A DNA stretch of 64,000 nucleotides from Acidovorax sp. sic0104 (GCF_019219095.1 NZ_JAHUWH010000008.1:124001-188000); one strand, 5' to 3'; counted from the stretch's first letter, positions 46,390 through 60,676 are shown. Notes: generated by a model not told the origin, from the letters alone. Numbers and translations are program-made.

Positions 46390-47136
46390 TCAGTCCCCAC
46401 CCGGCTGCCCCCGCAGCGCAAAGATGCTGGAGCGCAGCGCCGACAGCTCCAGCACGCGCAGCCCGCCGTACTCCACGCGGATCGCGCCCTGCTCCTCCAG
46501 AGTGGTCAGCGCCTCGTTCACGCGCTGGCGCGACAGCCCCACCAGGTACGCCAGCTCCTGCTGGGTGATGCGCAGCACCTCACCCACGCCCGGGTACAGC
46601 ACCGGGTTGAACAGTGACGCCAGGCTGCGCGCCACTCGCACGTCGGGGTTGCCAAAGCGGTCGATCTCACGCGCAGCGATGAACTGGCCCAGACGCTCAT
46701 TGAGCTGGTTCATCACGAAGCGGTTGAAGCCGATGGAGTGATCCAGCAGCCAGTGGAAGGTGTCGATGGGCAGGCCCGCCACCACGCTCTTCCTCAGCGC
46801 CTGGATGTTGTAGCGGTACGGCTCGCGCTTGAGCGCCGTGCCCTCGCCGAACCAGCCGCCCGGGGGCACGCCGGTGAAGGTCATGGTCTGTCCCTGGGCG
46901 TTGTCGCTGCTCATCTTGAGCAGGCCTTCCACCACGCCAAACCAGTAGGTCACGGGCCGGCCCAGGCGGCACACGTAGTCGCCCGCCTTGGCATCACCCA
47001 CCAACAGAGAGGCCACCGCACGCTCGCGCTCGGGCGGTTGCAGTTGGTCCAGCCAGGGAATGCCGTCGAGCTCTTCGGCGGTGGGCGCCCGACGGCGCTG
47101 GTGCAACGACAGGTCCTGGTGCGTGCGAGGGTCCAT
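46390..47136 (-). CDS. Crp/Fnr-family transcriptional regulator
   Basis: A 248-residue regulator. The N-terminal cyclic-nucleotide-binding-like beta barrel (about 40-150; VCRLGRPVTYWFGVVEGLLK, FTGVPPGGWFGEGTALKRE) lacks Fnr-type cysteines. The C-terminal winged helix has ITQQELAYLVGLSRQRVNEA as its helix-turn-helix; the recognition helix reads SRQRVNEALTTL, unlike the SRETVGR of Crp. The ligand is unknown. A TTGTC-N8-GACAA inverted repeat 46 bp upstream of its start is probably its own operator, shared with the divergent binding-protein gene and repeated before the acyl-CoA ligase gene. Confidence 0.92.
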   Translation of the reverse strand: MDPRTHQDLSLHQRRRAPTAEELDGIPWLDQLQPPERERAVASLLVGDAKAGDYVCRLGRPVTYWFGVVEGLLKMSSDNAQGQTMTFTGVPPGGWFGEGTALKREPYRYNIQALRKSVVAGLPIDTFHWLLDHSIGFNRFVMNQLNERLGQFIAAREIDRFGNPDVRVARSLASLFNPVLYPGVGEVLRITQQELAYLVGLSRQRVNEALTTLEEQGAIRVEYGGLRVLELSALRSSIFALRGQPGGD

Positions 47137-47179
47137 GACAGGGTGCGGCGGGTGCGGCTGATAGGGAAATCCTGATTCG

Positions 47180-47200
47180 AATTGTCGTCAGAAAGACAAA
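47180..47200. promoter_or_regulatory. inverted-repeat operator TTGTC-N8-GACAA, copy A
   Basis: AATTGTCGTCAGAAAGACAA lies in the divergent region between the Crp-family regulator and the LivK-like gene at 47285 (half-sites 47182-47186 and 47195-47199). Copy B at 51571-51590 matches it at 18 of 20 positions. Half-site spacing and location fit a Crp/Fnr-family dimer. Confidence 0.75.
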
Positions 47201-47284
47201 AAAATGCCAATCTGCACTCGATGATGGCCCCTCCTCCGGGCTAGGAACCTGTTCAAGGCCCGGGTCCACCGAGGAGACAACAAC

Positions 47285-48481
47285 ATGAAGAACCACCACC
47301 GATCCACACGCATCGTTGCCACCGCCAAAGAATGCCACAGCCCCGTACGGCGCCAGCTTCTGGCGGCTGCCGCAGCCCTGCCTTTGGCGGGCTTGGCGAG
47401 CGTGACGGGGCCCGCTCGCGCGCAGGAAGGCGCCATCCGCATCGCGCAGTCCACCGCGCTCACCGGGCCGCTGGGCGATCTGGGCTCGGCCATGCACCAG
47501 GGCGCCAAGGCCGCGTTCGCCAGCATCAACGCGCGGGGCGGCGTGAATGGCCGCACCATCGAACTCGTGACCCGGGACGATGCCTACGAGGTGCCCAAGG
47601 CCCTGGCCAACGTCGAACAATTCCTGGCAGACCGCGACGTCTTCGCGCTGTTCAACTGCATGGGCACGCCGATGATCGATGCCATGCTGCCCAAGGTGAT
47701 CGACAGCGGCATCCCGTTCTTTGCCCCGTTCACGGGCGCGCAGCTCAGCCGCACCAAGAACGCGCGCAATGTATTCAACATCCGCGCCAGCTACGCCGAC
47801 GAGGCCGAGAAGCTGGTGCAGCACCTGTCCACCATCGGCATCCAGCGCATCGGCATCGTCTATCAGAACAACTCCTTCGGCAAAGAGGTGTTCGCGTCCG
47901 CCAAGCAGTCGATGGACCGGCTCAAGCTCCCCGAGGCCGCCACGGTGACGGTGGAGAACAACGCGTCGGACGCCGGCACCGCCGCCGCCAAGCTGGCGGC
48001 GGGCAACCTGGAAGCCATCGTGATCGGCCTGGCCGGCAAGCCCACGCTGGAGTTCGTGAAGGCGTTCCGGGCCTTGAAGCGCGGGGTGACGCTGTACGCG
48101 CTGTCGGTCATGGGCACGCCCGCCACCGTCAAGGCCCTGGGCGCCGATGCCACCGGCATGGCCATCTCGCAGGTCGTGCCGCTGCCGTCCAACGCGGTGA
48201 TGCCGGTGGTGCGCGACTTTCAGGCCGCGTGGAAGGCATCGGGTGCCACCGCCGAGCCCTCGCACCTCGCGCTGGAGGGCTACATCAACGCCCGCGTGTT
48301 CGCCGAAGCGCTACAGCGCGCCGGGCGCAACCCGACGCGCGCGGCATTCATCGATGCAAGCTGGAACCTCAAGAAATGGGACCTGGGCGGCTTCGAGGTC
48401 AGCGCCAGCACGCCCGACCGCAATGCGTCGCGCTTTGTCGAGCTGACGCTGGTGGGGCGGGATGGCAGATTTATTAAATGA
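47285..48481 (+). CDS. orphan LivK-like ABC substrate-binding protein
   Basis: A 398-residue periplasmic binding protein of the branched-chain amino acid (type I) family. The N-terminus carries a twin-arginine-like signal (VRRQLLAAAAALPLAG, cleavage after ARAQ near residue 42). The mature part starts with IRIAQSTALTGPLGDLGSAM, typical of LivK-like proteins, with FFAPFTGAQLSRTKNARNVF and IGIVYQNNSFGKEVFAS. No permease or ATPase gene is adjacent; the nearest is the liv operon at 53.7-59.2 kb, which shares its upstream operator. The ligand is probably an amide, amino acid or aromatic acid. Confidence 0.9.
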   Translation: MKNHHRSTRIVATAKECHSPVRRQLLAAAAALPLAGLASVTGPARAQEGAIRIAQSTALTGPLGDLGSAMHQGAKAAFASINARGGVNGRTIELVTRDDAYEVPKALANVEQFLADRDVFALFNCMGTPMIDAMLPKVIDSGIPFFAPFTGAQLSRTKNARNVFNIRASYADEAEKLVQHLSTIGIQRIGIVYQNNSFGKEVFASAKQSMDRLKLPEAATVTVENNASDAGTAAAKLAAGNLEAIVIGLAGKPTLEFVKAFRALKRGVTLYALSVMGTPATVKALGADATGMAISQVVPLPSNAVMPVVRDFQAAWKASGATAEPSHLALEGYINARVFAEALQRAGRNPTRAAFIDASWNLKKWDLGGFEVSASTPDRNASRFVELTLVGRDGRFIK

Positions 48482-48556
48482 CCCCCTGAGCCGCTGCGCG
48501 TCTTCCCCAAGGGGGACGCACCCGGTGGCCCGGCGAAGCCGGTTCCACGGGTGCAC
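48480..48556 (+). repeat. ~90-bp hairpin repeat, copy 2
   Basis: It starts at the stop codon of the binding-protein gene: CCCCCTGAGCCGCTGCGCGT, CTTCCCCAAGGGGGACGCAC, CCGGTGGCCCGGCGAAGCCGG and TTCCACGGGTGC. Internal stems are CCCCAAGGGG and CCGGCGAAGCCGG. Confidence 0.85.
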
Positions 48557-48808
48557 TCGCGTTGGCGGCGTGCGGGCTTTGAGGGTGGTGGGCTGTGGTG
48601 GGCGTTTTCTGCGACGCTATATGTTTGATAGCTGCTGGCGCTTTTTGGATGGGCGGTGGCGGTACGGCGGCGGTAGGCCCGGTGGTGGGGCTGGGGCGCC
48701 GAGGCAGGGCGGCAGGGGAAACTTGGCGCGTCGCCATACCTTCGCTATATTTTTAATAGCTGCCAGCGCTCTCCAGATAAGCGGTAGCAGCCTTTTTTGA
48801 TCAAAAAC
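48557..48808. repeat. intergenic stretch with two small repeat copies (7 and 8)
   Basis: Copy 7 is about 48613-48663 (GCTATATGTTTGATAGCTGC, then TGGCGCTTTTTGGATGGGCG). Copy 8 is about 48741-48806 (GCTATATTTTTAATAGCTGC, then CAGCGCTCTCCAGATAAGCG and a CTTTTTTGATCAAAAA tail), ending 3 bp before the gspB stop. They lie between two convergent genes. Copy 8 offers a T6 run for plus-strand transcripts. No gene is seen here. Confidence 0.75.
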
Positions 48809-49678
48809 CTACTGCGACGCGACGCCGTAGCGGTAGCCGCGGAATGTCCAGACCGTGCGGCCGGGTTCGACGCGTTCGAGCACCAGGCCGGGGGCAGCCT
48901 GGTCGCCCTCATGCAGCACCTGGCCGTTGACGATGGCCATGCGGTAGGCCGGGTTGTTCGAGTGCGTGGCGCCGCTGACCTTGAGCGTGGGCAGTTGCGT
49001 GCGCACCGATTCGGGTAGATCGGCCTGGGCGAAGACCGGGCCGCCCGAGGGCGCCGCGGCGGTGGGCTCGGCCTGGGGGCGCTGCGCGGCCAAAGGTTCG
49101 CGCGCGGCGGCGGATTCGGGCCGGGAGCGGCTGGGCTCCGGCAGGGGCGCGAGCGTGCGGGTGGCGGGTGGCTGCGGCGGCGGTGCTGCCGCCACGGCCC
49201 GTTCGCGCGCGGGTGTGGTGGGCCGCTTGTCGGCCACCCGGGAATCGAGAGGCGGTGGCGATACGGCAGCGGGGCGCTGCGGCGCCGGGGCAACTGCGGC
49301 GGGCGCAGCAGGCACAGGGGCCACAGTCGGTGCGGCAGCTGCCACGGGCGCCTGGGCGGCCGCTGCGGCGGGAGGCGGCACAGGAGCAGGCTGCGCGGCG
49401 GGTATTGCCGGTGGGGCGGCCGCAGGTGGCGTCGCGAGCGCCACTGCGGGGGCGGCCGCCGGCATAGCCTGCCGCTGCATCACCCACCAGGTACCGGCCA
49501 CGGCCACCACGGCCACCGCTGCGGCCGAAGCCACACCGATCAGCACGCCGGACGGGCCGGTGCGCCCCGCCGTCGGCGAGAGTCCGGCGGCTGGCGTTGC
49601 ATGGGTGTGCAGGCCGGGCACAGCGCCCCGGCCTCGTTCGGCGTCCGCGCGCCGCAGCGCATCAAGGATGTAGGACAT
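48809..49678 (-). CDS. gspB: general secretion pathway protein GspB
   Basis: A 289-residue inner-membrane protein. The opening MSYILDALRRADAERGRGAV is the GspB signature. A membrane helix follows (about 43-65, GVLIGVASAAAVAVVAVAGT), then a ~150-residue Pro/Ala-rich periplasmic linker. The C-terminal T2SSB domain contains LPTLKVSGATHSNNPAYRMA, IVNGQVLHEGDQAAPGLVLE and TVWTFRGYRYGV. GspB works with GspA in placing the secretin GspD of the type II secretion system. It starts 2 bp after the gspA stop; no other gsp genes are in the window. Confidence 0.92.
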   Translation of the reverse strand: MSYILDALRRADAERGRGAVPGLHTHATPAAGLSPTAGRTGPSGVLIGVASAAAVAVVAVAGTWWVMQRQAMPAAAPAVALATPPAAAPPAIPAAQPAPVPPPAAAAAQAPVAAAAPTVAPVPAAPAAVAPAPQRPAAVSPPPLDSRVADKRPTTPARERAVAAAPPPQPPATRTLAPLPEPSRSRPESAAAREPLAAQRPQAEPTAAAPSGGPVFAQADLPESVRTQLPTLKVSGATHSNNPAYRMAIVNGQVLHEGDQAAPGLVLERVEPGRTVWTFRGYRYGVASQ

Positions 49679-49680
49679 GG

Positions 49681-51459
49681 TCAGAGCTTGGATTGCAGAC
49701 GCGGTTCATTCACGCCGGTGGCGCGGTTGAGCAGCATGAGGGTCAGGGGGCCAGCGCGGCCGTCGGGCGTCACGCCCTGGGCCAGCTGGAAGCGGTGGAT
49801 GCGCGACTGGCGCAGCGCGGGCGTCATCGGCTTGGCGGGCATGGCACCCGTGCCGCCCGCCGCCTTGCTGGCAAGCCGCTGGTCCAGCCAGGCGGCGCCT
49901 GCGGGCGACTCGGCAATGTCTCCCCTGTCGGGCATGCCGGCCGGGATGCGCCACAGCGTGGCGATATCGCCACGCCAGACCTGGGCCAGCTCGGCCACCG
50001 GCACCTGCAGCGTACGGCCCGCGCCCTCCAGTGTGGCGGTATCGTTGCTCAGGCCCCGCAGCACCACGGAGACGGGGGCTTCGGCCTCTTCCGACGCATA
50101 CAGCCCCAGCAGCACGGGCCGGTCGATCTGGCGCACCAGGTTCAGACCTGCGCGCCGGTTGCGGTAGCACCGCAGGCCGTCGCGCGGCAGGCTGGCGCAG
50201 GCATCCGCGCCGGCGGGGATGCTCACGCCCCAGGCCGACGCCAGGGCCTGCCAGGCACCTGCATCGCTGGCGGGCTGCGATTGCACGAACTGCTCCAGGG
50301 CCGACAGCGGCACGGCGCTGGTCGATGCCGAAGGCGCGGAAGACGGCGCACCCGCGGCGGTTGCCGCCGACGCGGCCGATGCGGCCGATGCGGGCAAGCT
50401 TGCCGGCCGGGCAGGTCCGGATGCCGCCGGCGCCCGTTGCGCCGCCCCGGCTGCGGCAACGGCGGGCGCCACTGCAGCGCCTGCCGTCTCAGTGCGCGCA
50501 GGCTTGGCAGGCCAGCCCCCCAAAGCCCAGCCCGCTGCGGCCACGGCAGCCGCGCCGGCCACGGCGCCGAGGCCGGCTGACGCCCAGCGCGGCCAGGCGC
50601 CGGAAGGCGTGCCCCGCAGGGCCCGGGCCGAGCCGGGTGCATCGAAAACTTCGCGCGCCGCACGGTCCACGATGGCCTTGGAAACCTGGCGGGCACCAGC
50701 CGCGTAGGCCCCCAGCAGCGCACGGTCGCACAGGAGATTGATGCGCCTGGGGATGCCGTGCGAGAGCTTGTGCACGCGCTGGATGGCACGCCGGTCGAAG
50801 GGCAGCGGTCCGTTGAGCCCCGCCACCGCCAGGCGGTGCGCGATGTACTGGTGCGTCTCCTGCTGCGTGAGCGCGCCCAGGTGAAAGCGCGCAATCACGC
50901 GCTGCGCCAGCTGCTCCATCGAGGGCCGCGCCACCATGGCGCGCAGCTCGGGCTGACCAATGAGGATCACCTGCAGCAGCTTGCGCTCGCTGGTCTCCAG
51001 GTTGGTGAGCAGGCGCAGTTGCTCCAGCACGTCCGCCGACAGGTTCTGCGCCTCGTCGATGATGAGCACCGTGTTGCGCCCCGCTCCGTGCGCGGCCAGG
51101 AGCGACGCATTGAGTGGATCGATGTAGTCCTTGACCGTCTCCACGCCGCCCGGCACGGTCGGCTTGTGCGGTATGCCGAACTCGTCGCAGATGGAGCGCA
51201 GCAGCTCGCGCACCGTGAGCTTGGGGTTGAAGATATAGGCCACGTTGCAGTGCTGCGGGATCTGCTCCAGGAAGCAGCGGCACACGGTGGTCTTGCCCGC
51301 ACCCACCTCGCCCGTCAGCAGCACGAAACCGCCGCCTGCGTCCAGCCCGTACAGCAGGTGGGCCAGCGCTTCCCGGTGCCGTTCGCTCATGAACAGGTAG
51401 CGGGGGTCGGGTGCGATGGAAAACGGCGGATGCTGGAGACCGAAAAACGGGGCGTACAT
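49681..51459 (-). CDS. gspA: ExeA/GspA-like AAA ATPase with peptidoglycan-binding domain
   Basis: A 592-residue protein. It opens with MYAPFFGLQHPPFSIAPDPR, YLFMSERHREALAHLLYGL. The AAA ATPase (about 25-270) has Walker A TGEVGAGKTTVCR and Walker B TVLIIDEAQNLS, with IGQPELRAMVARPSMEQLAQ. A membrane helix lies near 305-325, followed by a long Ala-rich linker and a C-terminal peptidoglycan-binding domain (FQLAQGVTPDGRAGPLTLML). With GspB it forms the complex that helps the type II secretin cross the cell wall. It heads the gspA-gspB pair. Confidence 0.93.
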   Translation of the reverse strand: MYAPFFGLQHPPFSIAPDPRYLFMSERHREALAHLLYGLDAGGGFVLLTGEVGAGKTTVCRCFLEQIPQHCNVAYIFNPKLTVRELLRSICDEFGIPHKPTVPGGVETVKDYIDPLNASLLAAHGAGRNTVLIIDEAQNLSADVLEQLRLLTNLETSERKLLQVILIGQPELRAMVARPSMEQLAQRVIARFHLGALTQQETHQYIAHRLAVAGLNGPLPFDRRAIQRVHKLSHGIPRRINLLCDRALLGAYAAGARQVSKAIVDRAAREVFDAPGSARALRGTPSGAWPRWASAGLGAVAGAAAVAAAGWALGGWPAKPARTETAGAAVAPAVAAAGAAQRAPAASGPARPASLPASAASAASAATAAGAPSSAPSASTSAVPLSALEQFVQSQPASDAGAWQALASAWGVSIPAGADACASLPRDGLRCYRNRRAGLNLVRQIDRPVLLGLYASEEAEAPVSVVLRGLSNDTATLEGAGRTLQVPVAELAQVWRGDIATLWRIPAGMPDRGDIAESPAGAAWLDQRLASKAAGGTGAMPAKPMTPALRQSRIHRFQLAQGVTPDGRAGPLTLMLLNRATGVNEPRLQSKL

Positions 51460-51570
51460 CCCATGAGGATACCGCCCCGGTGTGAAGCGTTCCCCTGCGG
51501 GCCGGCTGCCGCAGCATCCGGCACGTTTTCGAGGCCGTTCAGGGTTTCACCCAACAAGGAGTTTCCCGTA

Positions 51571-51615
51571 AATTGTCGTCGGCAAGACAAGATGGCGTCA
51601 AAGTGAGTTCTACAT
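51571..51615 (+). promoter_or_regulatory. operator copy B and probable promoter of the acyl-CoA ligase/liv operon
   Basis: AATTGTCGTCGGCAAGACAA (51571-51590) repeats copy A with only two mismatches, half-sites TTGTC and GACAA with 8 bp between. A TACATT hexamer at 51610-51615 would place the operator centre near -40 relative to a start about 6 bp downstream, the class II activator position for Crp-type proteins. The -10 assignment is tentative. Confidence 0.65.
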
Positions 51616-51744
51616 TCCTTTCAACGCGCCACCCACGCGCTGCCCCGTTGCGCCGTCAACGCGGCAGCGGTCCCGGCAGGCGCAGGATGGACCGACGCCG
51701 CCACAGGCATGCCTGGGCGCCCCTTCTCTCACCCGAGGACCGGA

Positions 51745-53691
51745 ATGAAGACCACGTTCCCCCAGCAACTGCTGCGCCACGCCGCCGAACGCCCCACGGC
51801 GGCAGCCCTGCGTGAAAAAGAGTACGGCATCTGGCAGACCCACACCTGGGCCGACCTGGCGCGACTGGTGGAGCAGGTGGCCGCCGGCCTGCACCAGGCG
51901 GGCCTCAAGCGCCACGAGCACATGGTGGTGATCGGCGCCAACCGCCCGCGCCTGTACGCCACCATGCTCGCCGCCCAGTCGCTGGGCGCCATCCCCGTGC
52001 CGCTGTACCAGGATGCGGTGGCGGCGGAATGCATCTTCCCGCTCAACAACGCCGAGGTGCGCTTTTGCCTGGTCGAAGACCAGGAGCAGGTGGACAAGAT
52101 GCTGGAGATCCGCGAGCAGTGCCCGCAGATCGAACACATCTACTTCGACGACCCGCGCGGCCTGCGCAACTATGCCGAGCAGGGCCTCTATGCGCTCGAC
52201 ACACTGATCGACTCCGGCAAGGCCTTCGTGGCCCAGCACCCTGGGTGGTTCCGCACCGAAGTGGGCAAGGCCAGCCCCGACGACGTGGCCGCGATGTTCT
52301 TCACCTCGGGCACGACGGGCAACCCCAAGGGCGTGGTGCACACCCACAGCACGCTGCTGGACCGCGCGTCCGCTGGCGCCGAGTTCGACAGGCTCACCGG
52401 CAGCGAGGAAGTGCTGGCCTACCTGCCACCCGCCTGGATCGGGCAGAACATCTTCAGCTACGCGCAGTGGCTGTCGTGCGGCTACGTGGTCAACTGCCCC
52501 GAATCGGCCAGCACGGTGTCGATCGACCTGAAGGAAGTCGGCCCCACCTACTACTTCGCGCCGCCGCGCATCTTCGAAGGCCTGCTCACCAGCGTGATGA
52601 TCCGCATGGAGGACGCCGGCGCCATCAAGCGCAAGATGTTCAAGGCCTGCATGGCCGTGGCCCAGCGCGTGGGCCCCGCGCTCATGGACGGCCAGAGCGT
52701 GGGCCTGCTTGACCGCATGAAGTACGCGCTGGGCAACGTGCTGGTATACGGCCCGCTGCGCAACAACCTGGGGTTCAGCCGCGTGCGGGTGGCCTACACG
52801 GCGGGCGAGGCCATCGGGCCCGACCTGTTCACCTTCTACCGCTCCATCGGCATCAACCTGAAGCAGCTGTACGGCTCCACCGAGACCGCCGTGTTCGTCT
52901 GCCTGCAGCCCGACAACCAGGCGCGTGCCGACACCGTGGGCGTGCCGATCCGCGGCGTGGAGATCAAGGTGGCCGACAACGGAGAGATCCTGGTCAAGTC
53001 CGCCGGCCTGCTCAAGGAGTACTACAAGAACCCCAAGGCCACGTCCGAGGTGCTGACCGACGACGGCTGGTACCACACCAGCGATGCGGGCTTCCTCGAT
53101 GCGCAAGGGCACCTCAAGATCATCGACCGCGTGAAGGACGTGGGCCGCATCAAGGGCGGCGCCAACGACGGCGCCATGTTCGCGCCCAAGTACGTGGAGA
53201 ACAAGCTCAAGTTCTTCCCGCACATCAAGGAAGTGGTCGCCCTGGGCGACGGCCGCGAGAAGGTGTGCGTGATGGTCAACATCGACTTCGACGCCGTCGG
53301 CAACTGGGCCGAGCGCCGCAACCTGCCTTACGCGGGCTACACCGACCTGGCGCAAAAGCCCGAGGTGTACGGCCTGATCCGGGAGTGCGTGGAAAAGGTC
53401 AACGCGGACCTGGCCACCGACGCGCTGCTCGCCGGCAGCCAGGTCAGCCGCTTCCTGGTGCTGCACAAGGAGCTGGACGCCGACGACGGCGAACTCACGC
53501 GCACCAACAAGGTCCGCCGTGGCTTCATAGCCGAGAAGTATGGCGTGCTGGTCGACGCGCTGTATGCCGGCCGCACCGAGCAGTTCATCGAAACCCAGGT
53601 CAAGTTCGAGGACGGCCGCACGGGCAGCGTGAGCGCCACGCTCAAGCTGTCCGATGCCAAAACGTTCACCCCCGTGAAGACCGCCGCATGA
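51745..53691 (+). CDS. AMP-forming acyl-CoA synthetase
   Basis: A 648-residue adenylate-forming ligase. The ATP-binding loop is FFTSGTTGNPKGVVHTH; further motifs are YGSTETAVFV, WYHTSDAGFLDAQGHLKIID and RVKDVGRIKGGAND. It is of the long-chain fatty acyl-CoA synthetase type, but its place at the head of a liv transport operon suggests it activates an imported aromatic or aliphatic acid. The ATG at 51745 follows GAGGACCGG. The stop overlaps the livG start (ATGA at 53688-53691). Confidence 0.9.
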   Translation: MKTTFPQQLLRHAAERPTAAALREKEYGIWQTHTWADLARLVEQVAAGLHQAGLKRHEHMVVIGANRPRLYATMLAAQSLGAIPVPLYQDAVAAECIFPLNNAEVRFCLVEDQEQVDKMLEIREQCPQIEHIYFDDPRGLRNYAEQGLYALDTLIDSGKAFVAQHPGWFRTEVGKASPDDVAAMFFTSGTTGNPKGVVHTHSTLLDRASAGAEFDRLTGSEEVLAYLPPAWIGQNIFSYAQWLSCGYVVNCPESASTVSIDLKEVGPTYYFAPPRIFEGLLTSVMIRMEDAGAIKRKMFKACMAVAQRVGPALMDGQSVGLLDRMKYALGNVLVYGPLRNNLGFSRVRVAYTAGEAIGPDLFTFYRSIGINLKQLYGSTETAVFVCLQPDNQARADTVGVPIRGVEIKVADNGEILVKSAGLLKEYYKNPKATSEVLTDDGWYHTSDAGFLDAQGHLKIIDRVKDVGRIKGGANDGAMFAPKYVENKLKFFPHIKEVVALGDGREKVCVMVNIDFDAVGNWAERRNLPYAGYTDLAQKPEVYGLIRECVEKVNADLATDALLAGSQVSRFLVLHKELDADDGELTRTNKVRRGFIAEKYGVLVDALYAGRTEQFIETQVKFEDGRTGSVSATLKLSDAKTFTPVKTAA

Positions 53692-54512
53692 AGCCCGCCC
53701 TCTACCCGCCCGAGAAGGCACACGCCATGACCACAAAGAAGATCGGCGACGTCATCCTGGACGTCAAGAACATCAGCCTGCGGTTCGGCGGGGTGAAGGC
53801 GCTGACCGACATCTCGTTCAACGTGCGCGAGCACGAGATCCGCGCCATCATCGGCCCCAACGGCGCGGGCAAGAGCTCCATGCTCAACTGCATCAACGGC
53901 GTGTACACGCCGTCCGAGGGCTCCATCACCTTCCGGGGCAAGACCTTTGCACACATGAACTCGCGCCAGGTGGCCGAGATGGGCGTGGCGCGCACCTTCC
54001 AGAACCTGGCGCTGTTCAAGGGCATGAGCGTGATCGACAACATCATGACGGGCCGCAACCTCAAGATCAAAAGCAACCTGCTGATGCAGGCGCTGCGGTG
54101 GGGCCCCGCCGAGCGCGAGGAGATCGCCCACCGCGAGAAAGTCGAGCACATCATCGACTTCCTTGAGATCCAGGCGTTTCGCAAGACCCCCGTGGGCCAG
54201 CTGCCCTACGGCCTGCAAAAGCGCGTGGACCTGGGCCGGGCCCTGGCCATGGAGCCGCAGGTGCTGCTGCTGGACGAGCCCATGGCCGGCATGAACGTGG
54301 AGGAAAAGCAGGACATGTGCCGCTTCATCCTGGACGTGAACGACGAGTTCGGCACCACCATCGTGCTCATCGAGCACGACATGGGCGTGGTGATGGACAT
54401 CAGTGACCGCGTGGTGGTGCTCGACTACGGCAAGAAGATCGGCGACGGCACGCCGGATGAAGTGCGCAACAACGAAGATGTGATCAGCGCCTATCTGGGC
54501 ACGAGCCACTAA
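53688..54512 (+). CDS. livG: branched-chain-type ABC transporter ATP-binding protein LivG
   Basis: A 274-residue ABC ATPase. Walker A is GPNGAGKSSM, preceded by ISLRFGGVKALTDISFNVRE. The LivG-type loop VARTFQNLALFKGMSVIDN is present, the signature region is atypical (VGQLPYGLQKRVDLGRAL, with PYGLQ in place of SGGQ), and Walker B is VLLLDEPMAGMN. The ATG at 53688 overlaps the ligase stop; an ATG at 53727 is the alternative start. PYGLQ signatures are usual in LivG members of this kind. Confidence 0.92.
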   Translation: MKPALYPPEKAHAMTTKKIGDVILDVKNISLRFGGVKALTDISFNVREHEIRAIIGPNGAGKSSMLNCINGVYTPSEGSITFRGKTFAHMNSRQVAEMGVARTFQNLALFKGMSVIDNIMTGRNLKIKSNLLMQALRWGPAEREEIAHREKVEHIIDFLEIQAFRKTPVGQLPYGLQKRVDLGRALAMEPQVLLLDEPMAGMNVEEKQDMCRFILDVNDEFGTTIVLIEHDMGVVMDISDRVVVLDYGKKIGDGTPDEVRNNEDVISAYLGTSH

Positions 54513-54528: not shown

Positions 54529-55458
54529 ATGGCTTTCTTTCTCGAAACACTGATCGGCGGCCTCATGGCCGGCATGCTGTATTCGCTGGTGGCACTGGGC
54601 TTTGTGCTGATCTACAAGGCCTCGGGCGTTTTCAACTTCGCGCAGGGCGCGATGGTGCTGTTCGCGGCACTGGCCATGGCGCGCTTTGCCGAATGGATTC
54701 CCAAGTGGACGGGCATCACGAGCCCCATCGTCGCCAACCTGGCGGCCTTCATCATCGCGGGCGCCATCATGTTCGTGGTGGCCTGGGTGATCGAGAAGCT
54801 GGTGCTGCGCCACCTGGTGAACCAGGAAGGCGCCACACTGCTCATGGCCACGCTCGGGATCACCTACTTCCTTGAAGGCCTGGGTCAGACGATGTTCGGC
54901 AGCGACATCTACAAGATCGACGTGGGCATGCCCAAGGACCCGATCTTCATGCTGGAGAGCATGTTCCAGGGCGGCATCCTGGTGAACAAGGAAGACGTGA
55001 TCGCGGCAGCCATCGCGGCCGGACTGGTGGCCCTGCTGTCGGTGTTCTTCCAGAAGACCTCCACCGGCCGCGCCCTGCGCGCCGTGGCCGACGACCACCA
55101 GGCCGCCCAGTCCATCGGCATTCCGCTCAACCGCATCTGGGTGATCGTGTGGTGCGTGGCCGGCGTCGTGGCCCTGGTGGCCGGGATGATCTGGGGCAGC
55201 AAGCTCGGCGTGCAGTTCTCGCTGACCACCGTGGCGCTGCGCGCGCTGCCGGTGGTGATCCTGGGCGGCCTCACGTCCGTGCCCGGCGCCATCATCGGCG
55301 GGCTGATCATTGGCGTGGGCGAGAAGCTCTCGGAGGTCTACCTGGGCCCGTTCGTGGGCGGGGGCATCGAGATCTGGTTTGCGTATGTGCTGGCCTTGGT
55401 GTTCCTTCTCTTCAGGCCTCAGGGGCTCTTTGGCGAGAAGATCATTGATCGCGTCTGA
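54529..55458 (+). CDS. livH: branched-chain-type ABC transporter permease LivH
   Basis: A 309-residue membrane protein with about eight helices. It shows LivH features: LIGGLMAGMLYSLVALGFVL, IYKASGVFNFAQGAMVLFAA, GRALRAVADDHQAAQSIGIP and the EAA-like loop, ALPVVILGGLTSVPGAIIGG. It starts 16 bp after livG with a GGGAG ribosome-binding site. With LivM it forms the pore of the importer. Confidence 0.94.
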   Translation: MAFFLETLIGGLMAGMLYSLVALGFVLIYKASGVFNFAQGAMVLFAALAMARFAEWIPKWTGITSPIVANLAAFIIAGAIMFVVAWVIEKLVLRHLVNQEGATLLMATLGITYFLEGLGQTMFGSDIYKIDVGMPKDPIFMLESMFQGGILVNKEDVIAAAIAAGLVALLSVFFQKTSTGRALRAVADDHQAAQSIGIPLNRIWVIVWCVAGVVALVAGMIWGSKLGVQFSLTTVALRALPVVILGGLTSVPGAIIGGLIIGVGEKLSEVYLGPFVGGGIEIWFAYVLALVFLLFRPQGLFGEKIIDRV

Positions 55459-55495: not shown

Positions 55496-56572
55496 ATGCT
55501 TTACCGCGAAAACGGCCAGTTCAAGACCAGCTACCGCGCCGACCAGCAGATCTTCCCCATCGCACAGGACCGGCTGGCCATCCTGCTCATCCTGGCCGTG
55601 GCCTTCCTGGTGGTGCCTGCATTCGCCAGCGACTACATCTTCCGCGCCATCCTGATCCCCTTCGTCATCATGGCGCTGGCGGCCCTGGGGGTGAACATCC
55701 TCGTGGGCTACTGCGGACAGATCTCGCTGGGCTCGGGTGCGTTCATGGCGGTGGGCGCCTACGGGGCCTACAACTTCTTCGTGCGCTTTCCGGGCATGCC
55801 GCTGGTTCCGGCCATCATCCTGGGCGGCCTGTGCGCCACGTTCTTCGGCATCCTGTTCGGCCTGCCCAGCCTGCGCGTGAAAGGTTTGTACCTGGCCGTG
55901 GCCACGCTGGCCGCGCAGTTCTTCTCGGACTGGATGTTCCTGCGCATCAAGTGGTTCACCAACAACTCCGACTCGGGCTCGGTGTCGGTGAGCAATCTGC
56001 AGGTGCTGGGCATGCCCATCGAGAGCGCCGCCAGCAAGTACATCTTCTGCCTGGCCCTGCTGGTCGTGGTGGCCCTGCTGGCCAAGAACCTCGTGCGCGG
56101 CGCCATCGGCCGCGAATGGATGGCCATCCGCGACATGGACGTGGCCGCAGCCGTGATCGGCATCCGCCCCATGTACGCCAAGCTCAGCGCCTTCGCGGTC
56201 AGCTCCTTCATCATCGGCATGGCCGGCGCGCTGTGGGCCTTCGTGCACCTGGGCGCATGGGAGCCCGCGGCCTTCTCGGTGGAGGTGTCGTTCCGCCTGC
56301 TGTTCATGGTGATCATCGGCGGCCTGGGCTCCATCATGGGCGCGTTCTTCGGCGCGGCCTTCATCGTGGTGCTGCCCATCGTGCTCAACCAGTTCCTGCC
56401 GGCCTTGCTGGGCCTGTTCGGCATCGAGATCTCCACCGCCGGCATCTCGCACGCCGAGCTGATGATCTTCGGCGCGCTGATCGTGTGGTTCCTGATCGTA
56501 GAGCCGCACGGCCTGGCCAAGCTGTGGTCCACCGCAAAGCAAAAGCTTCGCCTGTGGCCCTTCCCGCATTGA
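55496..56572 (+). CDS. livM: branched-chain-type ABC transporter permease LivM
   Basis: A 358-residue membrane protein with about nine helices. LivM features are NILVGYCGQISLGSGAFMAV, GAYGAYNFF, LRVKGLYLAVATLAAQFFSD, GREWMAIRDMDVAAAVIGI and MVIIGGLGSIMGAFFGAAFI. A ~35-residue hydrophilic N-terminus precedes the first helix. It starts 37 bp after livH with CAGGAGA before the ATG. A hairpin repeat follows 4 bp after its stop. Confidence 0.94.
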   Translation: MLYRENGQFKTSYRADQQIFPIAQDRLAILLILAVAFLVVPAFASDYIFRAILIPFVIMALAALGVNILVGYCGQISLGSGAFMAVGAYGAYNFFVRFPGMPLVPAIILGGLCATFFGILFGLPSLRVKGLYLAVATLAAQFFSDWMFLRIKWFTNNSDSGSVSVSNLQVLGMPIESAASKYIFCLALLVVVALLAKNLVRGAIGREWMAIRDMDVAAAVIGIRPMYAKLSAFAVSSFIIGMAGALWAFVHLGAWEPAAFSVEVSFRLLFMVIIGGLGSIMGAFFGAAFIVVLPIVLNQFLPALLGLFGIEISTAGISHAELMIFGALIVWFLIVEPHGLAKLWSTAKQKLRLWPFPH

Positions 56573-56668: not shown

Positions 56669-56759
56669 TGGCCTCGTGCATGCCAGTGCAAAGCTCGCAG
56701 CCCTTGAATCCGTCAGTTTCTTCCCCGTGCTTCAACACATTCATTCAAAGGAGACATCC

Positions 56760-58088
56760 ATGAAGCTTTCGAAACTCGTGATCGCCGCTGCGGTGGTTGC
56801 CGCTGGCGCCTCGTCCGTCGCGACGAGTGCCTTCGCGCAAGCCAAGGAGCAGTTCTTCCCGCTGCTGTCCTACCGCACCGGCCCCTACGCGCCCAACGGC
56901 GTGCCTTGGGCGAACGGCAAGCAGGACTACATCAAGATGATCAACGCCCGCGACGGCGGCATCAACGGCGTGAAGCTCACCTTTGAAGAGTGCGAGACGG
57001 GCTACGCCACGGACCGCGGCGTGGAGTGCTACGAACGCCTGAAAGGCAAGCCCGGCGTGTCGCTGTTCGACCCACAGGCCACCGGCATCACCTTTGCGCT
57101 CACCGAGAAGGCGCCCGTGGACAAGATTCCGCTGATGACACTGGGCTATGGTTTGTCGGTGGCGCAGGACGGCCAGGCGTTCAAGTGGAACTTCCCCTTC
57201 ATGGGCAGCTACTGGACCGGCGCCGACATCCTGATCCAGCACATCGGCAAGACGGCGGGAGGTCTGGACAAGCTCAAGGGCAAGAAGATCGCCCTGGTCT
57301 ACCACGACAGCCCCTTCGGCAAGGAACCTATCCCGCTTTTGCAGGAGCGCGCCAAGATGCACGGCTTCGAGCTGCAGATGCTGCCCGTGACCGCGCCCGG
57401 CGTGGAGCAGAAAGCCACCTGGCTGCAGGTGCGCCAGAGCCGCCCCGACTACGTGCTGCTGTGGGGCTGGGGCGTGATGAACTCCACCGCGCTGAAGGAA
57501 GCGCAGGCCACCGGCTTCCCGCGCGACAAGCTGTATGGCGTGTGGTGGGCCGGCGCCGAGCCGGACGTGCGCGATGTGGGCGAAGGCGCCAAGGGCTATC
57601 ACGCCCTGGCGCTCAACGGCTACGGCACGCAAAGCAAGGTCATCCAGGACATCATGAAGCACGTGCACGACAAGGGCCAGGGCACGGGTCCCAAGGACGA
57701 AGTGGGTTCAGTGCTGTACACGCGCGGCGTGATCATCCAGATGCTGGCCGTCGAGTCGGTGCGCCGCGCGCAGGAGCGCTTCGGCAAGGGCAAGGTCATG
57801 ACCGGCGAGCAGGTGCGCTGGGGCATGGAGAACCTGGCGCTGGACCAGAAGAAGCTCGACGCCATGGGCTTTGGCGGCGTGATGCGCCCCCTGTCCACCA
57901 GCTGCGCCGACCACATGGGCTCCACCTGGGCGCGCGTGCACACCTGGGACGGCAAGAAGTGGGACTTCTCGTCCGACTGGTACCAGGCCGATGAGCAGAT
58001 CTTGAAGCCCATGGTGAAGGCCGGTGCGGAGAAGTACCTGGCGGACAAGAAGATGACGCGGCGAGATGCTGCGGACTGCCAGTCTTGA
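56760..58088 (+). CDS. livK: LivK-like ABC substrate-binding protein of the liv operon
   Basis: A 442-residue periplasmic binding protein. The signal peptide is KLVIAAAVVAAGASSVATSA with cleavage after AFAQ (about 26). The mature part shows FPLLSYRTGPYAPNGVPWAN, IALVYHDSPFGKEPIPLLQE and YVLLWGWGVMNSTALKEAQA. It is longer than amino-acid LivK proteins, as in the subgroup linked to aromatic or carboxylic acid uptake. Hairpin repeats flank the gene on both sides, a layout expected to raise its level relative to the membrane components. GGAG before the ATG is the ribosome-binding site. Confidence 0.92.
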   Translation: MKLSKLVIAAAVVAAGASSVATSAFAQAKEQFFPLLSYRTGPYAPNGVPWANGKQDYIKMINARDGGINGVKLTFEECETGYATDRGVECYERLKGKPGVSLFDPQATGITFALTEKAPVDKIPLMTLGYGLSVAQDGQAFKWNFPFMGSYWTGADILIQHIGKTAGGLDKLKGKKIALVYHDSPFGKEPIPLLQERAKMHGFELQMLPVTAPGVEQKATWLQVRQSRPDYVLLWGWGVMNSTALKEAQATGFPRDKLYGVWWAGAEPDVRDVGEGAKGYHALALNGYGTQSKVIQDIMKHVHDKGQGTGPKDEVGSVLYTRGVIIQMLAVESVRRAQERFGKGKVMTGEQVRWGMENLALDQKKLDAMGFGGVMRPLSTSCADHMGSTWARVHTWDGKKWDFSSDWYQADEQILKPMVKAGAEKYLADKKMTRRDAADCQS

Positions 58089-58397: not shown

Positions 58398-59210
58398 ATG
58401 GACACCAACAGCAATATCGTTCTCAACGTCAACGGCATCGAGGTCATCTACAACCACGTGATCCTGGTGCTCAAGGGCGTCTCCTTGCAGGTGCCGCAGG
58501 GCTCCATCGTGGCCATCCTGGGGGGCAATGGGGCGGGCAAGACGACCACGCTGCGCGCCATCTCGAACTTGCTCAAGGGCGAGCGTGGCGAGGTCACCAA
58601 GGGCAGCATCGAGCTGCGCGGCGAGCGCATCGAGAACCTGTCGCCCGCCGACCTGGTGCAGCGCGGCGTGGTGCAGGTGATGGAGGGGCGGCACTGCTTT
58701 GCCCACCTGACGATCGAAGAGAACCTGATGACGGGCAGCTACACCCGCACCAGCAAGGCCGAGATCGCGGCCAACCTGGAGAAGGTCTATAACTACTTTC
58801 CGCGCCTGAAGACGCGCCGCACCTCGCAGGCGGCCTACACCTCGGGCGGCGAGCAGCAGATGTGCGCCATCGGCCGCGCGCTGATGGCCAACCCCAGCAT
58901 GGTGCTGCTCGACGAGCCGTCCATGGGCCTGGCTCCCCAGATCGTGGAAGAGGTGTTCAACATCGTGAAGGACCTGAACACCAAGGAGAAGGTCACATTC
59001 CTGCTGGCCGAGCAGAACACCAACATGGCCCTCAAGTATTCGGACTACGGCTACATCATGGAAAGCGGCCGCGTGGTGATGGACGGCGCCGCGAGCGACC
59101 TGGCCAACAACGAGGACGTCAAGGAGTTCTACCTGGGCGTGGGCGGAGGGGAGCGCAAGAGCTTCAAGGATGTCAAGAGCTACAAGCGGCGCAAGCGCTG
59201 GCTGGCCTGA
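58398..59210 (+). CDS. livF: branched-chain-type ABC transporter ATP-binding protein LivF
   Basis: A 270-residue ABC ATPase. Walker A is GGNGAGKTTTLR, the LivF-type loop is GVVQVMEGRHCFAHLTIEEN, the signature is YTSGGEQQMCAIGRALMANP and Walker B is MVLLDEPSMGLAP. It has a basic C-terminal extension (SFKDVKSYKRRKRWLA) compared with the ~235-residue amino-acid LivF. It completes the importer with LivG, LivH and LivM. The hairpin repeat copy 5 begins right at its stop codon. Confidence 0.93.
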   Translation: MDTNSNIVLNVNGIEVIYNHVILVLKGVSLQVPQGSIVAILGGNGAGKTTTLRAISNLLKGERGEVTKGSIELRGERIENLSPADLVQRGVVQVMEGRHCFAHLTIEENLMTGSYTRTSKAEIAANLEKVYNYFPRLKTRRTSQAAYTSGGEQQMCAIGRALMANPSMVLLDEPSMGLAPQIVEEVFNIVKDLNTKEKVTFLLAEQNTNMALKYSDYGYIMESGRVVMDGAASDLANNEDVKEFYLGVGGGERKSFKDVKSYKRRKRWLA

Positions 59211-59428: not shown

Positions 59429-60676
59429 ATGACGACGTTTTTTGACGCCCAGGAAACCCGGAGCACGGCCGAGCGCGAGGCGGCGCTGCTGGTGGCGTTG
59501 CCGCGGCAGGTGGGGCATGCGCAGCAGAACAGTGCGGCATTCGCGGGCATTCTGGCCGGCGTGGATGCGGCGGGGGTGACCAGCCGTGCGGCGCTGGCAC
59601 GGTTGCCGGTCACGCGCAAGTACGAGCTGCTGGAGCGCCAGCAGGCGCAGCGCGCGAGCAATGTGTTCGGCGGGTTTTCGGCGCTGGGCTTTGGGGCGGG
59701 CATGCCGCGCGTGTTCGCAAGCCCCGGCACCATCTATGAGCCCGAGGGCACGCGGCCCGACTACTGGCGCATGGCGCGGGCGATCTATGCGGCGGGGTTT
59801 CGGCGGGGCGAGCTGATCCACAACAGCTTCAGCTACCACTTCGTGCCAGCGGGTTCGATGATGGAGACCGGCGCCCATGCCCTGGGCTGCACCGTGTTTG
59901 CGGGCGGCACGGGCCAGACCGAGCAGCAGGTGCAGGCCATGGCCGAGCTGCGGCCTGCGGGGTACATCGGCACACCGAGCTTTCTCAAGATCATCGTGGA
60001 GAAGGCCGCCGAGCTGGGCGTGCCCCTGCCCACCGTGACCAAGGCGCTGGTGTCCGGCGAGGCGTTCCCGCCCTCGCTGCGCGACTGGTTCGCCGAGCGC
60101 GGCATCGCGGGCTACCAGTGCTACGCCACGGCGGACCTCGGGCTCATCGCCTACGAGACTGCCGCGCGCGAAGGCCTGGTGCTGGACGAAGGCGTGATCG
60201 TCGAGATCGTGCGGCCCGGCACCGGCGACCCGGTGCCCGAGGGCGAGGTGGGCGAGCTGGTGGTCACCACGCTCAACCCCGACTATCCGCTGGTGCGCTT
60301 TGGCACCGGCGACCTCTCGGCCGTGCTGCCGGGCACCTGCCCCACCGGCCGCACCAACACCCGCATCAAGGGCTGGATGGGACGCGCCGACCAGACGACC
60401 AAGGTGCGCGGCATGTTCGTGCACCCGGGCCAGGTGGCCACCATCGCGCGGCGCTTTCCGCAGGTGGTGCGCGCGCGCCTGGTGGTCAGCGGCGAGATGG
60501 CCAACGACCAGATGGTTCTGCAGGTGGAAACCGTGGAGACGGCCGAAGGCCTGGCGCGCCAGCTCTCTGACGCCATCCGCGAAGTGACCAAGCTGCGCGG
60601 CGACGTGCAGATGGTGGCGCCCGGCACCTTGCCCAACGACGGCAAGGTGATCGAGGACGCCAGGAGCTACAGGTAG
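59429..60676 (+). CDS. phenylacetate-CoA ligase family protein (PaaK-like) with altered ATP loop
   Basis: A 415-residue adenylate-forming protein of the PaaK superfamily. Matches include the middle KIIVEKAAELGVPLPTVTKA, LVSGEAFPPSLRDWF, YQCYATADLGLIAYE and TNTRIKGWMGRADQTTKVRG, then MFVHPGQV, the PaaK-type C-terminal hinge. The usual SSGTTG-x-P loop is replaced by ASPGTIYEPEG, so normal ATP chemistry is uncertain. It follows the liv operon in the same direction and probably handles the same imported acid. Confidence 0.85.
   Translation: MTTFFDAQETRSTAEREAALLVALPRQVGHAQQNSAAFAGILAGVDAAGVTSRAALARLPVTRKYELLERQQAQRASNVFGGFSALGFGAGMPRVFASPGTIYEPEGTRPDYWRMARAIYAAGFRRGELIHNSFSYHFVPAGSMMETGAHALGCTVFAGGTGQTEQQVQAMAELRPAGYIGTPSFLKIIVEKAAELGVPLPTVTKALVSGEAFPPSLRDWFAERGIAGYQCYATADLGLIAYETAAREGLVLDEGVIVEIVRPGTGDPVPEGEVGELVVTTLNPDYPLVRFGTGDLSAVLPGTCPTGRTNTRIKGWMGRADQTTKVRGMFVHPGQVATIARRFPQVVRARLVVSGEMANDQMVLQVETVETAEGLARQLSDAIREVTKLRGDVQMVAPGTLPNDGKVIEDARSYR

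Follow-up and report, generated by a model that had tools for sequence, protein, structure and literature searches.

Can one regulator of the Crp/Fnr family serve two separate transcription units through a shared operator? This question is raised by a 64,000-nucleotide stretch of the genome of Acidovorax sp. sic0104 (GCF_019219095.1 NZ_JAHUWH010000008.1:124001-188000), referred to here as the window. In it, a Crp/Fnr-family regulator gene lies near livK1, which encodes an orphan LivK-like binding protein, and, beyond a gspBA gene pair, an operon encoding a FadD-like acyl-CoA ligase, a Liv-type importer and a PaaK-like second CoA ligase (the ligase-liv operon, with fadD as its first gene). An earlier note on this DNA had pointed to two 20-mers, identical at 18 of 20 positions, one before each unit, and had proposed that the regulator controls both units through them. 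Both 20-mers were located where the note had placed them, and the palindrome that they share, TTGTC-N8-GACAA, was found in exact form at only two places in the window (operators 1 and 2; Table 1).

The reading favoured here, to which we assign a probability of about 80%, is derived from sequence comparison. The regulator would bind TTGTC-N8-GACAA as a dimer at two class II promoters and would act as an activator at each of them. Promoter 2 would drive the ligase-livGHMKF-paaK-like operon, read here as linking the uptake of an organic acid, aliphatic or aromatic, with its activation by CoA ligation, and promoter 1 would drive livK1, the product of which would be a second ligand-binding subunit for the permease of that operon. 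Comparison between genomes establishes the site, its fixed spacing from the -10 hexamer, the reliance of its presence on the regulator gene, and the placing of the regulator next to the operon in relatives; from these we infer direct binding and activation.

Conservation of the operator within the family

A regulator search yielded orthologs at 80 loci in named genomes (Acidovorax, Polaromonas, Ramlibacter, Comamonas, Diaphorobacter and others), and 73 loci with a regulator ortholog near an acyl-CoA ligase operon were scored relative to the fadD start. The palindrome was present within ~200 bp upstream of fadD in all 73 loci at two mismatches or fewer, and in 70 of them at no more than one, the chance rate of a site with at most one mismatch being 0.5% per 200-bp region. 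Among 251 genomes of the family, regulator and ligase occur together in 206 and are both missing from 38; 5 have the regulator alone and 2 the ligase alone. The loci of the two ligase-only genomes are located on short contigs, yet retain the site together with the promoter motifs CGTCAAA and TANNAT, so that the regulator may simply be unassembled there.

The gene order of the 73 loci is variable, with the regulator next to fadD in 31, livK1 between them in 24, livK1 and gspBA between them (the order of the window) in 10 and gspBA alone in 8. A second, regulator-proximal site was identified in 29 of 34 livK1-bearing loci; the site, whose absence from these places would have refuted the proposal, was thus found at both in relatives that have retained regulator and operon. 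In all eight loci with gspBA alone the regulator-proximal site is absent and the fadD site is retained, indicating that autoregulation is not essential to the circuit.

Conservation across the order and loci without the regulator

For comparison at the level of the order, 250 genomes were sampled, 44 of which encode the regulator (E-value of 1e-30 or better) and 81 the ligase. Outside the family, the site was found at one mismatch or fewer in 33 of 37 regulator-bearing loci, the remainder showing degenerate forms, as opposed to 1 of 37 ligase-liv operons from regulator-less genomes, where it lies at -406 and without the flanking bases (Fisher p = 4e-15). The earlier note's suggestion that related genomes be searched for co-occurrence is hence answered: the site tracks the regulator and is missing where the regulator is missing, which supports the proposed control of both units. 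In distant loci from many families, with regulators of ~50% identity, the intergenic region between regulator and ligase retains the site, and in a locus from outside the order a site lies beside the regulator, with TATGAT at +39.

Beyond the family, regulator and operon are mostly immediate, divergent neighbours. This adjacency is therefore likely to be ancestral, with livK1 and gspBA representing insertions; the operon, described earlier as distant, is indeed apart from the regulator in the window, but it is an ancestral neighbour. In two loci of one family (L120 and L121) the order is changed, livG coming first, followed by a ligase of 38-39% identity; a motif-matching site is still located beside the regulator start, between regulator and operon.

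Promoter geometry

Anchored alignment of the fadD promoters revealed ATTGTCGTY-NN-AA-N-GACA, followed by a near-invariant CGTCAAA (+23 to +29) and by TANNAT (+38 to +43), with numbering from the first T of the operator. TANNAT is present at +38 in 70 of the 73 loci, and any other offset was observed at most twice. In the distant loci (n=40, three paralog loci included) the spacing is +38 in 28 and +39 in 8, and in 36 of 40 three or all four of the conserved -10 bases are found at +38/39. The livK1 promoters of relatives display a like geometry, with GATGAT or TAGCAT at +38. With an assumed transcription start ~7 bp past the -10 hexamer, the centre of the site falls at ~ -41.5, the class II position, for which the -10 hexamer lies ~29.5 bp from that centre; this is close to the -40 noted before for operator 2, and the right half of the operator occupies the -35 position, as in class II activator promoters. 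By the position of the site, the fadD and livK1 promoters would both be class II promoters of the CRP type.

CGTCAAA, within the promoter spacer, is nearly invariant and holds a fixed place in the fadD promoters of loci L005-L084, and it is absent from other families; in livK1 promoters its place is taken by TGCCAAT or TGTCAAT. CGTCAAA-N8-TANNAT, considered as a common promoter element, gave a single match in the whole genome. The motif was also considered as a divergent -35 element (TTTGACG) of the regulator, an assignment that was rejected, as loci with livK1 or gspA on that side retain the motif too. Ahead of both operators a palindrome-like GG-CC element is conserved (CTAGGACATTCCCTAG in Ramlibacter-type loci), which is possibly the site of a second regulator; a genome-wide regulon was not supported, TAGGG-N4-CCCTA occurring at 1 site compared with 3 in the control.

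The regulator and its predicted binding specificity

The regulator matches PF00027 (E-value 2e-15) and PF13545 (E-value 8e-13), and this domain pair, together with a two-fold palindrome whose 16-bp core, TGTC-N8-GACA, is conserved across families, places it in the Crp/Fnr superfamily. It scores 41 bits against the NCBIfam CRP equivalog, for which the cut-off is 266. The S-R-Q, R and N residues of its recognition helix are kept in nearly all orthologs. The signature of cAMP-CRP, RE(T/M)VGR with TGTGA, is replaced by RQRVNE with a TGTC half-site, and FNR-type features are likewise absent, the protein having one Cys and the site being TTGTC with N8 spacing rather than TTGAT-N4-ATCAA. In a hand alignment of the nucleotide pocket with G85, E86, R95 and S96 of Clr, G-E is kept, and YR, RR or RK occupies the R-S position. 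At the heme-ligand positions of CooA, the conserved GGWFGEG segment of the orthologs contains no Cys or His. A pocket with G-E but apparently without R-S, combined with a single Cys, makes classical cAMP, FNR-type and CooA-type sensing all unlikely. The effector is probably not cAMP; it may be the acid that is imported, or the CoA thioester of that acid.

The regulator nevertheless shares several features with CooA, the CO-sensing activator of Rhodospirillum rubrum, namely the fold of a CRP-type activator, TGTC-N8-GACA with TGTCG on the left, and an S-R-Q helix (SRQTTSTAL in PDB 1FT9). CooA differs in having heme ligands where the regulator has none, in its targets and in the inner bases of its operator (TGTCGGCNNGCCGACA, 16 bp; PMC545781). 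CAP reads its site via R180, E181 and R185, the CAP cluster having RE(T/M)VGR (PMC10127613). Class II promoters of Escherichia coli CRP/CAP similarly present a 16-bp dimer site at ~ -41.5 over the -35 region, but with TGTGA, RE(T/M)VGR and a canonical cAMP pocket, whereas the regulator has TGTC, lacks that helix motif and has what seems to be a non-canonical pocket. Clr, the cAMP/cGMP receptor of Sinorhizobium meliloti, also has CRP spacing and a TGTY/RACA-type operator, HGTYHC-N4-GRWACA, and the residues of its α8 helix that read DNA, R195, K197 and N199, match the R, R, N pattern of the regulator's helix; however, Clr has R95-S96 in its pocket where the hand alignment gives the regulator non-RS residues, and it binds many sites, as determined by chromatin immunoprecipitation sequencing (PMC10127613), whereas the regulator looks dedicated. 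HcpR, a Crp/Fnr protein predicted by comparative genomics from conserved promoters, also lies beside its target operon and has an 18-bp TTGT...ACAA palindrome, but with the site TTGTGA-N6-TCACAA and targets in Hcp and energy metabolism (PMC545781).

As judged from these alignments, the site is a CooA-type half-site at CRP spacing, and we infer that the TGTC half-site is explained by the Q found where CAP has E181. The specificity of its own that had been ascribed to the regulator holds insofar as the site differs from TGTGA and TTGAT, yet it is not unique, given the CooA-type core, the S-R-Q helix and a paralog at the same motif. No earlier report on the regulator, operator or operon was found in the papers searched, a set that did not extend to RegPrecise, where an entry may exist.

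A paralogous module and other explanations

The genome also encodes three weaker Crp/Fnr paralogs, with ~36-41% identity to the regulator. One of these (36%; C22:399237, in region C22:389500-407500, L153) is divergent from a cluster encoding an AMP-ligase, two permeases, ABC ATPases and what is probably a binding protein, and a fadB-like gene lies further along. Two TTGTC-N8-GACA sites belong to this module: TTTGTCAACGGGACGACA, located in the divergent region, and TTGTCCCGGGCGGGACAA, which precedes the fadB-like gene and is unchanged in most same-genus genomes. A single cell thus probably has two or more regulators that use operators of this type.

This module is among several observations that weigh against the favoured reading, since the C22 paralog, which sits at a site of the same motif, could bind operators 1 and 2 too. 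In addition, the regulator adjoins the operon in most regulator-bearing loci, so that the co-occurrence of site and regulator may partly reflect one inherited intergenic region. In one genus (genomes G105 and G188), where the regulator is apart from the operon, the site before fadD is absent in both genomes (L138, L191 and L192), G105 retaining a site next to the regulator, and the regulator-less locus L183 carries a degenerate site.

It is accordingly conceivable, if unlikely, that the two operators are bound mainly by another Crp/Fnr paralog such as that at C22:399237, or by several that cross-talk, the local regulator being neither the main nor the only controller. The same-motif sites at the C22 ligase-Liv cluster are in keeping with this, as is the C22 recognition helix, which also has S-R-Q and N. 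However, the fadD site tracks the local regulator across families, the regulator tracks the ligase within the family, and the C22 sites lack the +38 spacing.

Somewhat less probable still is repression, or two-way control from a shared site, in place of class II activation. Crp/Fnr proteins can repress, HcpR sites being located over -10 boxes (PMC545781), and in 31 relatives the divergent regulator and fadD have a single site between them. The fixed position at ~ -41.5 leaves the -10 hexamers of fadD and livK1 uncovered, and the placement of the right half at -35 likewise argues for an activator.

TGTCG...CGTC of the fadD promoter was also considered as the -35/-10 pair of an extracytoplasmic function (ECF) sigma factor, as TGTCGTY and CGTC are both conserved in the family at a spacing near that of ECF promoters. 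This very improbable explanation was rejected: the right half GACA is conserved as well as the left, CGTC is absent from livK1 promoters, and outside the family CGTCAAA is lost while the palindrome and the TANNNT spacing are kept.

Raw counts carry little weight, as the 5.82 Mb genome contains 4 exact TTGTC-N8-GACAA sites compared with 3 for the reversed control, and the chance expectation in the window is 0.78 when one mismatch is allowed; composition is thus only suggestive. WTTGTC-N8-GACA was found at 10 distinct places (12 rows, two places being counted on both strands), compared with 0 in the control. A chance likeness of two unrelated 20-mers is hardly credible, with both positions conserved in dozens of genomes and the promoter spacing fixed. 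Random occurrence, named beforehand as the result that would count against the shared operator, is contradicted by the relatives: the resemblance is real and far beyond chance, as settled by conservation, not composition.

Proposed target genes and layout of the locus

The gene assignments made earlier (Crp/Fnr regulator, LivK-like protein, GspB, GspA, AMP-ligase and livG-H-M-K-F) agree with those listed in Table 1. The exclusion of gspAB from the circuit likewise fits, the pair being inserted between regulator and operon and the promoter geometry pointing at fadD only.

Table 1. Positions in the window of the regulator, the promoter elements and the genes of the locus
Feature	Position	Strand	Remarks
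Crp/Fnr-family regulator	46390..47136	-	248 aa; cNMP_binding and HTH_Crp_2; recognition helix SRQRVNEAL
GG-CC element GGGAAATCC	47164..47172	.	upstream of operator 1; GG-N-CC elements ahead of both operators in relatives
Operator 1, TTGTCGTCAGAAAGACAA	47182..47199	+	between regulator gene and livK1
-10-like hexamer GATGAT	47220..47225	+	38 bp from first T of operator 1; class II spacing
LivK1	47285..48481	+	orphan Peripla_BP_6 binding protein; Tat-like signal; PDB relative 3LOP
GspB-like (T2SSB)	48809..49678	-	member of inserted pair; outside circuit
GspA/ExeA-like AAA ATPase	49681..51459	-	member of inserted pair; outside circuit
GG-CC element GGAGTTTCCC	51558..51567	.	conserved upstream of operator 2
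Operator 2, TTGTCGTCGGCAAGACAA	51573..51590	+	before ligase-liv operon
CGTCAAA	51596..51602	+	~ -27 to -21; near-invariant in the family's fadD promoters
-10-like hexamer TACATT	51611..51616	+	38 bp from first T of operator 2; site centre ~ -41.5
FadD-like AMP-forming acyl-CoA ligase	51745..53691	+	648 aa
LivG-like ABC ATPase	53730..54512	+	
LivH-like permease	54529..55458	+	
LivM-like permease	55496..56572	+	
LivK2	56757..58088	+	operon's own binding protein; PDB relative 4RU0
LivF-like ABC ATPase	58398..59210	+	
PaaK-like second CoA ligase	59429..60676	+	downstream of liv genes in relatives too

With two permeases, two ATPases and a Peripla_BP_6 binding protein, the operon encodes a Liv (HAAT) importer, and its combination with two CoA ligases, FadD-like and PaaK-like, suggests that an organic acid is taken up and activated. 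The nearest PDB relatives of LivK1 and LivK2 place them in separate groups of binding proteins, an arrangement compatible with a single permease that handles two ligands. It is plausible that LivK1 serves the importer of the operon, since livK1 is directly upstream of the ligase operon in 24 relatives.

In 13 loci of the family (L018, L019, L022, L033, L034, L036-L038, L046, L050, L059, L063 and L078) the ligase is ~60% identical to that of the window, with livG 91-97% identical and the operator kept, an apparent ligase replacement inside an otherwise conserved operon.

Implications

The regulator and its sites represent a new case of a familiar class of gene switch, in an arrangement that, by genome comparison, is conserved across a bacterial order. 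A broader and rather doubtful extension would be a Burkholderiales family of heme-less regulators with CooA-type operators, each with an AMP-ligase-Liv module and sensing an acyl- or aryl-CoA or the free acid, whose paralogs share the operator and cross-talk, CGTCAAA marking a further promoter step.

CAP, GlxR, Clr, CooA and the present regulator group form a natural series for the change in the recognition helix at CAP position 181, where E to Q may accompany the switch from TGTGA to TGTC. The regulator itself is uncharacterised; ~84% of the family genomes sampled encode it, and it is spread over the whole order. The analysis provides it with a ready regulon, operator and promoter architecture. 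An orphan binding protein is thereby also linked with an importer, and both become directly testable.

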